The position numbers and the translations under genes are program-made. The notes below the pieces were generated by a model that did no database searches, was not told the DNA's origin, and saw nothing but the letters and a program-made list of their open reading frames with translations. From Actinomycetota bacterium (GTDB taxonomy: Bacteria > Actinomycetota > Thermoleophilia > Gaiellales > F1-60-MAGs149), in the NCBI GenBank assembly GCA_009885805.1, contig VFJZ01000030.1, positions 1-64,000 of the forward strand: a stretch of DNA of 64,000 nucleotides, given 5' to 3'. This document shows, in pieces, positions 4,972-57,363 of this stretch. Every line of letters begins with the position of its first letter. The first letter of the stretch is position 1.

Positions 4972-5241
4972 TTGGACATCATCATCAGGATCGGTGACGG
5001 TTTCATGTTCGTGGCGTGGGCGCTGACGATCGCCTACATCGTGATGAGCATCCTGCCGCTGCCGTCCAACCGCACGATCGCTGCGATCCGCGACTTCCTC
5101 GAGCAGACCGTCGGCCCGGTGTTGCGCTTCGTGCGGCGGTTCGTGCCGCCGCTCGGCCCGATCGACCTGTCGCCGATGATCGCGCTGATCGGCCTGTCGC
5201 TCATCTGGGGCGGTGTCCTGAAGCCGCTCCTCGGCGGCTGA
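4972..5241 (+). CDS. YggT family membrane protein
   Basis: The protein has 89 residues from TTG 4972. The uncommon start is supported by a strong Shine-Dalgarno (AAGGAG, bases 4962-4967) at good spacing. It has two hydrophobic segments, one near the N-terminus (FMFVAWALTIAYIVMSILPL) and one near the C-terminus, with the conserved Pro-rich loop (PPLGPIDLSPMIALIGL). YggT proteins commonly lie between proC or sepF and divIVA in Gram-positive bacteria. They are linked to envelope or division functions, but no biochemical role is fixed. Confidence 0.88.
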   Translation: MDIIIRIGDGFMFVAWALTIAYIVMSILPLPSNRTIAAIRDFLEQTVGPVLRFVRRFVPPLGPIDLSPMIALIGLSLIWGGVLKPLLGG

Positions 5242-7445: not shown

Positions 7446-7541
7446 CGAACCATCACGAGCGGGGGAGGGAACTGGCCCGATGATCCTGCAGCAACCGGGG
7501 CCGATGCCCGTCAGGTGCTACATCCAGCGCAGAGCCGATCC
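7446..7541 (+). promoter_or_regulatory. SAM-I (S-box) riboswitch aptamer
   Basis: The S-box core is present in order: GAGC, GGGAGGGAACTGGCCCGAT, CCTGCAGCAACC, then GGTGCTACATCCAGC. These form the kink-turn P2 stem, a short P3 and the P4 stem with GCU/AGC pairing, and they bind S-adenosylmethionine. The outer P1 stem is not clean in my reading. The downstream genes metY, metX and metW are textbook S-box targets, so SAM binding should switch off the operon. Confidence 0.92.
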
Positions 7542-7599
7542 GTCCCGGGCGGCCGAGCGGAAGATGGAACGTCGCCCTGCGAAGCGCACGGGCGTTGAG

Positions 7600-7636
7600 G
7601 GCCCTCCGGGACATCTACCGAGAGGGCCTTCGTCGT
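7600..7636 (+). terminator. Likely riboswitch-controlled terminator hairpin
   Basis: GGCCCTC at 7600-7606 pairs perfectly with GAGGGCC at 7622-7628 across a 15-nt loop, followed by TTCGTCGTT. It lies between the SAM-I aptamer and metY, where an S-box expression platform would be. The U-tract is weak, as is usual at this GC. A competing antiterminator was not worked out. Confidence 0.65.
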
Positions 7637-7678
7637 TCCCGGGGCAGGATCGCGCCACCCGGCGCAGGGAGCACGGAC

Positions 7679-8977
7679 ATGAGCGGACATCGACCGGAGA
7701 CCGTCGCGTTGCACGGCGGCTACGTGCCCGACCCGACCACGAACGCGCGGGCCGTGCCGATCTACCAGACGACGTCGTACGTCTTCGACGACACCCAGCA
7801 CGCCGCCGACCTCTTCGCACTGAAGGTCCCAGGCAACATCTACACGCGCATCATGAACCCGACCTGGGACGTGTTCGAGCAGCGCGTCGCAGCGCTCCAG
7901 GGCGGCATCGCGGCGCTCGCGCTCGCCTCCGGGCAGTCGGCGGTGGCGTACTCGGTGCTGAACATCGCCCGCGCCGGCGACAACATCGTCTCGGTCTCGA
8001 CCCTCTACGGCGGCACCTACAACCTGTTCGCCCACACGCTGCCGCAGTTCGGCATCGAGGTGCGGTTCGCCGACCCGGACCGGCCCGAGTCGGTCGCGGA
8101 ACTGACCGACGCCAACACGCGCCTGGTCTTCGCCGAGACGATCGGCAACCCGAAGCTGAACGTCGTCGACATCGCCGCCTGGGCGGAGGCCGCGCACGCG
8201 CAGGGCCTGCCGCTGATCGTCGACAACACCGTGCCGACGCCGCTCGGCTGCGACGTCTTCGGCCTCGGCGCCGACATCGCCGTGCACTCCGCGACGAAGT
8301 ACATCGGCGGCCACGGCACCTCGATCGGCGGCGTCGTGATCGACTCCGGGAAGTTCGACTGGGTCGCCAACGCCGATCGCTTCCCGGGCCTCACGAAGCC
8401 CGACCCGTCCTACCACGGCGTCGTCTGGGCCGACGCGCTCGGGCCGGCCGCCTACATCGGGCGGGTGCGCACCGTGCTGCTGCGCAACCTGGGAGCGGCG
8501 CTGTCGCCGTTCAACGCGTTCCTCTTCATCCAGGGCCTCGAGACGCTCCCGCTGCGCATCGAGCGGCACTTCCAGAACGCGCTCGCCGTGGCCGAGCACC
8601 TCTCGGCACATCCGCAGGTGCGTTGGGTCAACTACCCGGGGCTGCCGACGAGCGAGTCGTACGAGGTCGCGCGCCGCACGCTGAAGATCGGCGGCGGTGG
8701 ACTCGTCACCTTCGGGATCGACGGCGGGCAGGAGGCCGGTCGCGCGTTCATCGAGGGGCTCGGCCTCTTCTCCCATCTCGCGAACATCGGCGATGCGCGC
8801 TCGCTCGCGATCCACAACGCCTCGACGACCCACTCGCAGCTGAACGCAGAGGAACTCGCGAAGGCCGGCGTTACGCAGGACACCGTCCGACTCAGCGTCG
8901 GCATCGAGCACATCGACGACATCCTCGAGGACATCGACCAGGCGCTCGCGAAGACGCGCGCGCTCGCCACCGCGTAG
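7679..8977 (+). CDS. metY: O-acetylhomoserine aminocarboxypropyltransferase (thiol-lyase)
   Basis: MetY makes homocysteine from O-acetylhomoserine and sulfide using pyridoxal phosphate. The 432-residue protein is a full-length Cys/Met-metabolism PLP enzyme. The Schiff-base lysine is K207 in [14 protein letters not shown]. The N-terminal YQTTSYVF and [17 protein letters not shown] segments are typical of the MetY branch rather than cystathionine enzymes. ATG 7679 has a GGGAG ribosome site 7 nt upstream and follows the SAM-I leader. metX starts 11 nt after its stop. Confidence 0.94.
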
Positions 8978-53773: not shown

Positions 53774-53779
53774 TAGGAT
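53774..53779 (+). promoter_or_regulatory. -10 element TAGGAT for the metH leader
   Basis: TAGGAT puts the transcript start near 53786, at the first base of the riboswitch stem P1. Confidence 0.55.
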
Positions 53780-53785
53780 TCGGCG

Positions 53786-53869
53786 CAGCGCGCAGTGATT
53801 TGGCAAGCCGCTTGCAAGCGCGCGTTCCCTCGCGAGAGGGGCGAACCAAAAGCTAAAGAGCCCAGGAGG
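53786..53869 (+). promoter_or_regulatory. SAM-II-like (SAM-alpha) riboswitch upstream of metH
   Basis: P1 is GCGCGC (53788-53793) with GCGCGC (53818-53823). Its loop holds the conserved GTGATTTGG and CCGCTTGCA blocks. A GNRA-capped hairpin insert (GTTC CCTC GCGA GAGG ... GAAC, 53824-53846) follows, then AAAAGCTAAAGAGCC. GGC 53802-53804 can pair with GCC 53860-53862 to form the short pseudoknot. The ribosome site AGGAGG starts directly after it, so SAM binding would hide it. The sequence blocks match the SAM-II class; pseudoknot pairing is short. Confidence 0.78.
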
Positions 53870-53877
53870 CTGCTGCG

Positions 53878-56800
53878 TTGCCCGCATCCGATCCGAACGG
53901 CTACCTCGACCTCGTGCGGTCCCGCACCGTCGTCAAGGACGGCGCGATGGGAACCCAGGTCCAGGCTGCCGACCTCCCCGACACCGCCTATGGCGGCCAC
54001 GTCGGCAACATCGACCATCTGACGCTGTCGGCGCCCGAGGTGATCACGGAGATCCATCGCTCGTTTCTCGACGCCGGCGCGGACTACCTGATCACGAACT
54101 CGTTCCAGTCGACGCGACTGCGCCTGGAGGAGTGGGGGCTCGCCGACGCGACCTTCGAGCACAACCGGGCGGCGGCCGCGCTCGCCCGGGCGGCCGCGGA
54201 CGAAGTCTCGACGCCGTCGTGGCGCCGCTACGTCGCCGGCTCGGTCGGGCCGACCGGGATGCTGCCATCGGGCAACGACCCGACGCTGTCGGCCATCACC
54301 TACCCCGAACTGGTGGAGCTGTTCCGCGAGCAGGTCGTCGGCCTCCTCGCCGGCGGCGTCGACCTGCTCCAGATCGAGACGATGCAGGACATCCTCGAGA
54401 CGCGCGCGGCGATGAACGGCGCCCGCCGTGCCTTCGTCGAGACGGGTCGACCCGTGCCGCTGCAGGTCTCGGTCGCGCTCGACGTCACCGGCCGGATGCT
54501 GCTCGGCACCGACATCGCCGCCGTCGCCGCGATCCTGCGCGGGCTGAAGGCCGACATCATCGGCACGAACTGCTCCGTCGGCCCCGAGCATCTGCGCGAA
54601 CCCGTGCGCTACCTCTGCCAGGAGTGCGACCTGCCCGTCGTCGTCGTCCCGAACGCCGGGTTGCCGCTGAACGTCGACGGCGAGACGGTGTACCCGCTCG
54701 GGCCGTCCGAGATGGCCGAGCAGATGGCGGCGTTCGTCCGCGACTGGGGCGCGAACGTCGTCGGCGGCTGCTGTGGGACGACGCCGGAGCACATCCGCCA
54801 GCTCGGCGAAGCGGTCCGGAGCGTCACCCCGCGACCGCGGCACCCCGTGTTCCGGCCGGCGATCGCCTCCGCCATGGCGGCCGTCGCCCTGCACCAGGAG
54901 CCGCGCCCGATGATCGTCGGCGAGCGCGTCAACACCCAGGGCTCCCGCAAGGTCAAGGAACTCGTCCTCGCCGACGACTACGACGGCATCCTCGGCGTCG
55001 CCCGCGACCAGGTCGAGTACGGCGCCCACTGTCTCGACATCTGCCTCGCGCTCACCGAACGTGGCGACGAGGCCGACCAGATGGTGCACGCCACGAAGAA
55101 GCTGTCGATGGGCGTCGAGGCGCCGCTGATGTTCGACACGCTGGAGACCGACGCGCTGCGCAGGGGCCTGGAGACGTATCCCGGCCGCGCGATCGTCAAC
55201 TCGATCAACATGGAGAACGGCCGCGCCCGGATCGAGGAGTTCGTGCCGCTCTGCGTCGAGCACGGGGCGGCGGTGATCGCGCTCACGATCGACGAGGCCG
55301 GCATGGCGAAGACGCGCGCCGAGAAGGTCCGCGTCGCCCGCAAGATCCACGACATCTGCTGCGACGAATATGGCCTGGCACCGTCCGACCTGATCTTCGA
55401 CGCCCTCACGTTCACGCTCGCGACCGGTGACGCCGAGTGGAGCGACTCGGCCGTCGAGACGATCGCGGGCATCCGCCTGATCAAGCGCGAACTGCCGGGC
55501 GTCCTGACGTCGCTCGGTGTCTCGAACGTCTCCTTCGGCCTCTCCCCGAAGGCGCGCGCCGTGCTCAACTCCGTCTTCCTGCACCACTGCGTCGAGGCCG
55601 GCCTCGACCTGGCGATGGTCAACCCGACGCACACCGTTCCGTACATGGAGATTCCCGCCAACGAGCGCGAACTCGCCGACGACCTCGTCCTGAACCGCCG
55701 GCCGGACGCGCTGCAGCGGCTGATCGCGCACTGCGACTCGATGCCGCTCGACGACCCCGGCACCTCGCTCGCCGACCGCTACGCCGAGCTTCCAGCCGAC
55801 GAGCGCCTGCACCAGAAGATCCTCCACCGCATCAAGGACGGCATCGAGACGGACATCGAGGCGGCGCTCGACGGGCGCGGCGGGCGCGGCAACGACGAGG
55901 CCGTCGCACTGCTCAACACCGTCCTTCTGCCCGCCATGAAGGACGTCGGCGACCGCTTCGGCCGCGGCGAGCTGATCCTGCCGTTCGTCCTGCAGTCGGC
56001 CGAGGTGATGAAGAAGGCGGTCGCGAAGCTGGAGGGCTACCTCGACCGCATCGACGGCCAGTCGAAGGGCAAGGTCGTGCTGGCGACGGTGTTCGGCGAC
56101 GTGCACGACATCGGCAAGAGCCTCGTCAACACGATCCTCTCCAACAACGGCTTCACGACGTACGATCTGGGCCGCCAGGTGCCGATCCAGGTGATCCTCG
56201 ACAAGGCGGTCGAGGTCGGGGCCGACGCGATCGGGCTGTCCGCGCTGCTCGTCTCGACGTCGAAGCAGATGCCGCTCTGCCTGCACGAGCTCGACGCGCG
56301 CGGCCTCGACTTCCCGGTGCTGATCGGCGGCGCCGCGATCAACCGCTCGTTCGGACGGCGGATCTGGCACCTCGAGGACGGGCGGCCGTACGGCGGCGGT
56401 GTCTTCTACTGCCAGGATGCGTTCGAGGGCCTCGACACGATCGAGCTGCTGCAGACGGACGAGGGTCGTGCCGAGCTGAAACGGTCGCGGCAGGAGGAGG
56501 CCGACCGGTACCTCGCGGAGGTGGCGCGGGCTCGCGCCGTGCGACCGGCCGTCGCGGCCGGGCAGCGAGCCGACCTACCGCGGGTGCGCGTGCCGGAGGC
56601 ACCCTTCTTCGGCGCCCGCATTGCCGACGACGTGCCGATCGACGAGGTCTGGGCGGGGATCGACCTGCGGACGCTGTACAAGTCGAGCTGGGGCGCGAAG
56701 AACGCGAAGGGCGCCGAGTTCGACCAGCTCGTCGCGACCGACTTCGAGCCCCGTCGCCTGCGCATGCAGGCCGAGGGTGTCGCGGCCGGTTGGCTGCGTC

Positions 56801-57363
56801 CCCGCGGCGTGTACGGCTACTTCCGCTGCGCCGCCGACGGCGAATCGCTGGTGCTGTTCGACGCCGACGGCGACAGCGAACTCGGCCGCCTCGCCTTCCC
56901 GCGCCAGGAGCGGCACGATCGGCTCTGCATCGCCGACTACTTCCGTCCGATCGACGACGCCGAACGCGACGTGGTCGCCTTCCAGGTCGTCACGGTCGGC
57001 CGCGAGGCGCAGGATCACGTCGATGCGCTCTACGCCGCCGAGGAGTACGCGGAGCAGTACTTCGCGCACGGCCTCGCGATCGCCGCCACGGAGGGGATGG
57101 CGGAGGCGCTGCACACGCGCATCAAGCGCGAGCTCCGCATGGAACCGGATCAGGGCCGACGCTACTCGTGGGGGTACCCGGCCTGCCCCGACCTCGAGCA
57201 CCACGCGCTCGTCTGCGACCTCCTCGGCGCGTTCGACGCGATCGGCATCGGCCTCACGTCGGCCTTCCAGCTCGACCCGGAACAGTCGACCGCGGCGATC
57301 GTCGTGCACCATCCGTCGGCGGTCTACTTCTCCGCGCTGCGTTCGGAGCGCGCCACCGCCTGA
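53878..57363 (+). CDS. metH: Cobalamin-dependent methionine synthase
   Basis: MetH methylates homocysteine with methyltetrahydrofolate through cobalamin. The 1161-residue protein has all four modules: homocysteine/zinc domain (VKDGAMGTQVQ, C232, C298, C299), pterin domain (about 340-600, IVGERVNTQGSRKVKE), cobalamin domain (GDVHDIGKSL with ligand H743), and the activation domain (about 900-1160). TTG 53878 is fixed by AGGAGG 8 nt upstream. It is regulated by the SAM-II-like element in front. It supplies methionine alongside the metYXW operon. Confidence 0.96.
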   Translation: MPASDPNGYLDLVRSRTVVKDGAMGTQVQAADLPDTAYGGHVGNIDHLTLSAPEVITEIHRSFLDAGADYLITNSFQSTRLRLEEWGLADATFEHNRAAAALARAAADEVSTPSWRRYVAGSVGPTGMLPSGNDPTLSAITYPELVELFREQVVGLLAGGVDLLQIETMQDILETRAAMNGARRAFVETGRPVPLQVSVALDVTGRMLLGTDIAAVAAILRGLKADIIGTNCSVGPEHLREPVRYLCQECDLPVVVVPNAGLPLNVDGETVYPLGPSEMAEQMAAFVRDWGANVVGGCCGTTPEHIRQLGEAVRSVTPRPRHPVFRPAIASAMAAVALHQEPRPMIVGERVNTQGSRKVKELVLADDYDGILGVARDQVEYGAHCLDICLALTERGDEADQMVHATKKLSMGVEAPLMFDTLETDALRRGLETYPGRAIVNSINMENGRARIEEFVPLCVEHGAAVIALTIDEAGMAKTRAEKVRVARKIHDICCDEYGLAPSDLIFDALTFTLATGDAEWSDSAVETIAGIRLIKRELPGVLTSLGVSNVSFGLSPKARAVLNSVFLHHCVEAGLDLAMVNPTHTVPYMEIPANERELADDLVLNRRPDALQRLIAHCDSMPLDDPGTSLADRYAELPADERLHQKILHRIKDGIETDIEAALDGRGGRGNDEAVALLNTVLLPAMKDVGDRFGRGELILPFVLQSAEVMKKAVAKLEGYLDRIDGQSKGKVVLATVFGDVHDIGKSLVNTILSNNGFTTYDLGRQVPIQVILDKAVEVGADAIGLSALLVSTSKQMPLCLHELDARGLDFPVLIGGAAINRSFGRRIWHLEDGRPYGGGVFYCQDAFEGLDTIELLQTDEGRAELKRSRQEEADRYLAEVARARAVRPAVAAGQRADLPRVRVPEAPFFGARIADDVPIDEVWAGIDLRTLYKSSWGAKNAKGAEFDQLVATDFEPRRLRMQAEGVAAGWLRPRGVYGYFRCAADGESLVLFDADGDSELGRLAFPRQERHDRLCIADYFRPIDDAERDVVAFQVVTVGREAQDHVDALYAAEEYAEQYFAHGLAIAATEGMAEALHTRIKRELRMEPDQGRRYSWGYPACPDLEHHALVCDLLGAFDAIGIGLTSAFQLDPEQSTAAIVVHHPSAVYFSALRSERATA

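Follow-up and report, generated by a model that had tools for sequence, protein, structure and literature searches.

SAM-II riboswitches are known mainly from proteobacteria and Bacteroidetes. At the time of a 2007 survey, no actinobacterial SAM-II was known (PMC2258182). Typically, the P2a helix of SAM-II comprises 5 bp and the element is often tied to terminators (PMC6061858, PMC2258182); for the metX SAM-II, a translational switch, a P2a of 2 bp is reported (PMC6061858). Those SAM-II and SAM-V switches that are known at methionine genes turn expression off (PMC1273637, PMC6061858). In the apparently actinobacterial DNA analysed here, a stretch of 64 kb (the window), a sequence-only reading had proposed a SAM-II-like RNA upstream of metH, the gene for a B12-dependent methionine synthase of 1161 aa with a TTG start and five MetH Pfam domains in order (53878-57363, on the plus strand like all window features below). 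The conserved core, the P1 helix and two independent profiles (R1 and R2, see below) support this proposal computationally. At a probability of about 0.8, we interpret the metH leader as a SAM-II-type aptamer, predicted to switch metH off at the level of translation in response to SAM. Judged by score and by predicted anatomy, the element is different from the listed SAM-IIs.

The leader gap spans 119 nt, from the end of a thiolase gene (53758) to the TTG of metH (53878). Base-by-base inspection of 53788-53863 revealed the SAM-II core GATTT, TTGC and GCTAA together with a perfect 6-bp P1, the order of parts being GCGCGC, AGT, GATTTG, GCAAGC, CGC, TTGC, AA, GCGCGC, a GCGA-capped hairpin, CAAAA, GC-T-AA, AGA, GCCC and AGGAGG. 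The conserved blocks claimed in the sequence-only reading (GTGATTTGG at 53795-53803, CCGCTTGCA at 53808-53816 and AGCTAAAGAGCC at 53851-53862) are all real, as are the 6-bp P1, the GNRA hairpin and the AGGAGG directly after. The 5' strand of P1 (GCGCGC, 53788-53793) is the perfect complement of the 3' strand (GCGCGC, 53818-53823) and aligns with P1 of both RF01726 and R2. GATTT (53797-53801), the predicted third strand of a SAM-binding triplex, is fully or almost fully conserved across 38 SAM-II elements from three phyla. TTGC (53812-53815), which forms the 5' strand of P2b (U-A, U-A, G-C, C-G), and GC-T-AA (53852-53856), its 3' strand with a bulged U, are invariant in our SAM-II alignment A1. 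The loop between P1 and the 3' block (L3) contains an inserted hairpin, CCCTC-GCGA-GAGGG, at 53827-53840 according to folding; for the 23-nt insert, a folding energy of -9.7 kcal/mol was calculated (z -1.5). Hairpins occupy the same position in four Bacteroidetes SAM-IIs (L131-L134) and in one relative from the order (L038).

While P2b is complete, P2a comprises 2 bp in the canonical register (G53807-C53861 and C53808-G53860), followed by an A-C mismatch, which places it among the weakest in this comparison and was counted against the switch reading. Its 5' strand, GC at 53807-53808, precedes the 3-nt spacer CGC (53809-53811), and its 3' strand, GC at 53860-53861, follows the spacer AGA; the 3' end of GCTAAAGAGCC (TAAAGAGCC) is also that of most order relatives. 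Since a 2-bp P2a was reported for the translational metX SAM-II, we regard this helix as weak but not disqualifying. The register is common to the window, to alphaproteobacterial elements (spacer GGC) and to the order relatives (spacer AGC). In alphaproteobacterial SAM-IIs the 3-nt spacer before TTGC is accompanied by 2-3 nt after GCTAA, the corresponding lengths in Bacteroidetes being 1 and 2. The pseudoknot originally proposed, GGC at 53802-53804 with GCC at 53860-53862, is out of register: it needs a 7-nt spacer, as opposed to 1-3 nt in other SAM-IIs. As no reference SAM-II has a 7-nt spacer there, this pairing was rejected as the primary one.

The sequence-only reading had named a score far below the model threshold as refuting, and formally this is what Rfam gave: RF01726 (SAM-II long loop) scored 17.0 bits at the site, against a cut-off of 44, and no match to RF00521 (SAM_alpha) was listed there. 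That no Rfam model attained its cut-off was counted against the switch reading. The site ranked first for RF01726 in the 3.56-Mb genome (E 2.3), and at E values up to 10 the leader had no other Rfam family listed than RF01726. Our own profiles R1 and R2 contained zero actinobacterial sequences. R1 is a sequence-only profile of the 38 aligned SAM-IIs of alignment A1 (proteobacteria, Bacteroidetes, and plasmids including one from Gemmatimonadota) and R2 a structured model of Bacteroidetes SAM-II only. Each produced a single match in the window, namely the metH leader site (R1, E 3.4e-4; R2, 18.8 bits). R3, a model of the variant described below, made from order relatives only, placed this site first in both the window and the genome (15.0 bits).

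A three-block pattern (GTGATTTN{3,18}CTTGCAN{10,40}GCTAAA) was run on 399 genomes of the class and 397 of the phylum (overlapping draws). Besides the window genome it matched only G168, where P1 was missing, and the reversed control pattern also had one match. A looser pattern, applied to both strands of about 1.7 Mb of fetched sequence, matched in the window solely at the metH leader site; outside the window it recovered SAM-II or variant elements and one Firmicute locus (L007) without Rfam support. None of the other class genomes yielded the exact classical core before metH, which was counted against the switch reading; the window copy has no close homologue. A long-insert pattern scan of genome contigs gave 11 matches (Bartonella repeats, Colwellia and others), treated as chance; six of these loci were rescanned and had no Rfam support. 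The Bartonella pair ATGGGC/GCCCAT, initially read as P2, was rejected, the loci having no convincing P1. The search of viral contigs returned nothing. On plasmid 1 of Gemmatirosa kalamazoonensis (Gemmatimonadota; L081:2992-3068), an element with a reduced P2 scored 38.1 bits for SAM_alpha, just over the cut-off.

With members of RF01726 (Bacteroidetes and marine sequences), the window element shares the gap-free spacing of P1-ANN-GATTTG and of TTGCAA-P1' as well as an A-rich run before GCTAA. Accepted members of this family also carry one or two L3 hairpins (L131-L134) or a longer L1 (L123, L135, L136). Unlike RF01726, the element has a GC-rich P1 and an L1 that is 4 nt longer than the model, and its P2a register includes a spacer of 3 nt, which is the proteobacterial arrangement. 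The resemblance to RF00521 (proteobacteria) lies in the P2 spacing (GATTTG, NGC-TTGC, GCTAA-AGA) and in the methionine genes downstream, whereas the 2-bp P2a with the Shine-Dalgarno sequence directly adjoining and the L3 hairpin depart from the typical RF00521 form with its 5-bp P2a. The metX SAM-II (2QWY) and SAM-V likewise possess a 2-bp P2a by the Shine-Dalgarno sequence, and its occlusion upon SAM binding has been proposed (PMC6061858). In these two, the Shine-Dalgarno sequence lies inside P2a, whereas in the window it starts 2 nt after P2a. The P3 hairpin of SAM-V and its longer P2 below the bulged U are absent from the window element, which has GC/GC there, as in SAM-II.

The range extension claimed in the sequence-only reading turned out to be larger than stated. 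Among 60 metH leaders retrieved for the same order, 38 had a variant SAM-II, and every one of these 38 belongs to f2, another family than that of the window genome, where most species examined use the variant (L021, L025, L028-L030, L032, L035, L036, L038, L043, L044, L046, L047, L184-L187, L189-L194, L196-L198, L200-L202 and L205-L213); a 39th f2 copy (L204) is clipped and stands outside this count. None of the order metH leaders scanned reached an Rfam gathering cut-off, the best f2 result being SAM_alpha at 19-26 bits, so that with these cut-offs alone the variant would have stayed hidden. When R1 was scanned over 319 genomes of the class, it found one site 65 nt before metH in G066 and two sites in G165. 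It matched none of the 30 short leaders searched with it; the variant therefore needs a model of its own.

The variant consensus reads CCYGG-ANA-GCTTTG-n(0-4)-GGC-AGC-TTGGC-GA-CCRGG-A-rich-GCC-T-AAA-GA-GCC. Compared with SAM-II, P2b is extended by one G-C pair (TTGGC/GCC-T-AA) and the third strand is mostly GCTTT, with GATTT in L035. Of the cells in an alignment of 37 sequences, 99.6% are paired. Double-sided changes numbered 14, compared with 3.2 in shuffled alignments (none of 500 reached 14), and the signal was lost in slid controls. In P1, a C-G pair was replaced by U-A in 10 sequences and by A-U in one; in P2a, GGC/GCC became AGC/GCU in L046, L206 and L212. P2b is invariant, so covariation supports P1 and P2a only. 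As for the covariation anticipated among metH leaders, it was thus found in P1 and P2a of the order's variant, but the window element itself is without a close homologue. R3 scored 39.4 bits on the second member of a tandem SAM-II pair that precedes an O-acetylhomoserine sulfhydrylase-like (metY-like) gene in a proteobacterium (G835; L246:382-448 and 550-612), and this second member bridges the variant and SAM-II groups. The model gave 30-32 bits for the G165 elements and also recovered Bacteroidetes and alphaproteobacterial SAM-IIs at the correct sites. From this, we take the variant, the window element and SAM-II to be homologous. In other genomes, R3 matches that scored no more than 22 bits fell mostly in coding DNA without the core and were discarded.

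In both the variant and the window element, ANN precedes the third strand and the spacers are AGC/AGA or similar; the two also share the TAAAGAGCC 3' end and metH downstream, and one variant member (L038) has L3 hairpins as well. Unlike the window element, the variant has TTGGC/GCCTAA for TTGC/GCTAA, mostly GCTTT for GATTT, a 3-bp P2a, an E. coli-type MetH, and usually a platform of 40-55 nt before the start. In L046 and L212 an in-frame AUG follows directly after P2a. In 14 of the 37 order relatives, a significant complement to the P2 strand lies downstream, which points to a second platform with alternative pairing. In a genome from another family of the class, two near-identical elements with the classical core are separated by 3.8 kb (G165:C12; L242:1337-1400 and 5175-5238). 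Both precede short ORFs without a Pfam match, with no recognised met gene, and behind each come a GC hairpin and a GGAG site.

As for the mechanism, transcription would start at or just before P1. The -10-like hexamer TAGGAT (53774-53779), a candidate from sequence alone, lies 8 nt before P1 and would put the start at approximately the first base of P1. It has no -35 partner, and a sigma-70 scan found no promoter there; this lack of a confirmed promoter was counted against the switch reading. When abundant, SAM would stabilise the P2 pseudoknot by binding between P2b and the third strand. The stabilised P2 would then bury or sterically block the adjacent AGGAGG (53864-53869, 8 nt before the TTG), so that less methionine synthase would be translated; at low SAM, P2a would open and leave the Shine-Dalgarno sequence free. 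The compact layout, in which AGGAGG lies 2 nt behind P2a and the aptamer 20 nt from the metH start, fits blocking of ribosomes by P2, as proposed for metX SAM-II and SAM-V. The L3 hairpin may be a tolerated insert, probably merely shortening a long loop. The main mechanistic uncertainty is a possible hairpin enclosing the Shine-Dalgarno sequence (AGCC-CAGGA-GGCT, 53859-53871), predicted by the local minimum free energy fold of 53852-53900. It would form in competition with P2 and could reverse the direction of the switch, which was counted against the preferred reading.

Were the output reversed in this manner, SAM-stabilised P2 would break the AGCC/GGCT hairpin and turn metH on. The local fold does pair AGCC (53859-53862) with GGCT (53868-53871) around the Shine-Dalgarno sequence, but the hairpin is short and AGGA stays in its loop. 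Moreover, SAM-II and SAM-V at methionine genes are known as OFF switches (PMC1273637, PMC6061858), and switching methionine synthase on by SAM would make little metabolic sense, so we hold a reversed output to be quite improbable. The element might also be a decaying or non-functional SAM-II remnant, its P2a too weak for SAM binding or switching. This would fit the 2 bp with the A-C mismatch, the sub-threshold Rfam scores, and the lack of a second genome with the exact form before metH among those searched. We nevertheless consider it unlikely: every core block and the perfect GC P1 are intact, and the Shine-Dalgarno sequence and start are compactly arranged. Furthermore, in both classical-core copies of G165 the third P2a position is likewise A-C, and the metX SAM-II has a P2a of 2 bp too (PMC6061858).

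A chance resemblance in a GC-rich leader seems scarcely credible. The Rfam score is under the cut-off, and unpseudoknotted folding of the leader favours another fold, with stability no better than shuffles (z 0.2), which was counted against the switch reading. On the other hand, the class and phylum draws held a single foreign pattern match, without P1, independent profiles rank the site first, and it lies exactly in a metH leader, in an order with a SAM-II variant in its other metH leaders. If instead the contig were foreign to the genome through a binning error, the extended range would not hold for the window genome. The assembly is MAG-like with an estimated contamination of 3.33%, and MetH differs in most order mates. 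Against this, GC content is 0.714, the tetranucleotide correlation to the other contigs of the genome is 0.84 (0.73-0.80 to relatives), and MetH shows 54-63% identity to its counterparts within the class, making a foreign origin very improbable. The SAM-repressed OFF switch is the reading we prefer.

The window MetH scored 993.7 bits for TIGR02082, slightly under the cut-off of 1010.85. The MetH proteins to which it is 54-63% identical come from other families within the class, phylum matches being less close, and the best matches among named records were from Streptomyces and Nonomuraea; these matches, the high GC content and the genome sizes seen in the phylum draw point to an actinobacterium. 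The f2 MetH that was tested belongs to the E. coli type (NF007024, 1743 bits, versus 722 for the window MetH). As the two types differ, two metH lineages in one order have SAM-II-type leaders. Joint arrival of metH and riboswitch in the window genome was considered and dropped, since the closest MetH in the order (G121, 63%) has no leader and class relatives show leaderless starts, SAM-I or a palindromic operator instead. The two SAM-sensing classes claimed for this genome stand up to computational analysis: a SAM-I (S-box) riboswitch at 7447-7570 (RF00162, 61.4 bits, gathering cut-off 44.4) precedes an O-acetylhomoserine sulfhydrylase gene at 7595-8977 (TIGR01326, 634.8 bits, cut-off 495.1).

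It is conceivable, though we propose it only tentatively, that actinobacterial metH leaders represent a distinct subclass of a SAM-II/SAM-V superfamily (longer P2b, A-to-C in the third strand), which entered the order with E. coli-type metH and maybe has a shifted ligand preference, while the window genome re-uses the classical core before a native actinobacterial-type metH, alongside SAM-I. The co-occurrence of SAM-I and a SAM-II-type RNA in one apparent actinobacterial genome, together with a covarying variant missed by Rfam yet common before metH in the order, points to a wider class. P2b of GC, GGC and SAM-V type offers a natural length series for testing how well the SAM pocket common to these RNAs copes with changes in the helix. 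The variant also shows to what extent small pseudoknot riboswitches are under-called by current covariance models in GC-rich phyla.

In other members of the class, metH has a leaderless start, a SAM-I leader or a palindromic operator; the type of metH regulator turns over within one class. SAM-I before metH was observed in another family of the class (L057:3360-3459, minus strand; 45.7 bits, cut-off 44.4), and the L055 metH leader resembles it but is under the cut-off. A palindrome resembling TTGACAC-N3-GTGTCAA occurs just upstream of the metH start in several families of the class (L052, L053, L056, L059, L060 and the G001 leader L195), and is likely the operator of a methionine regulator, in place of riboswitch control. 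Two genera of family f48 (L065, L068) share similar metH leader text, GCTG-CCTGATGGG-AGGGCG...CGCCAGGAG, with no Rfam match at cut-off; possibly, this is an undescribed RNA element. Finally, in one relative from the class, the 1.5 kb upstream of metH contain a c-di-AMP (ydaO) riboswitch of 76.1 bits (L059:1212-1379, minus strand).
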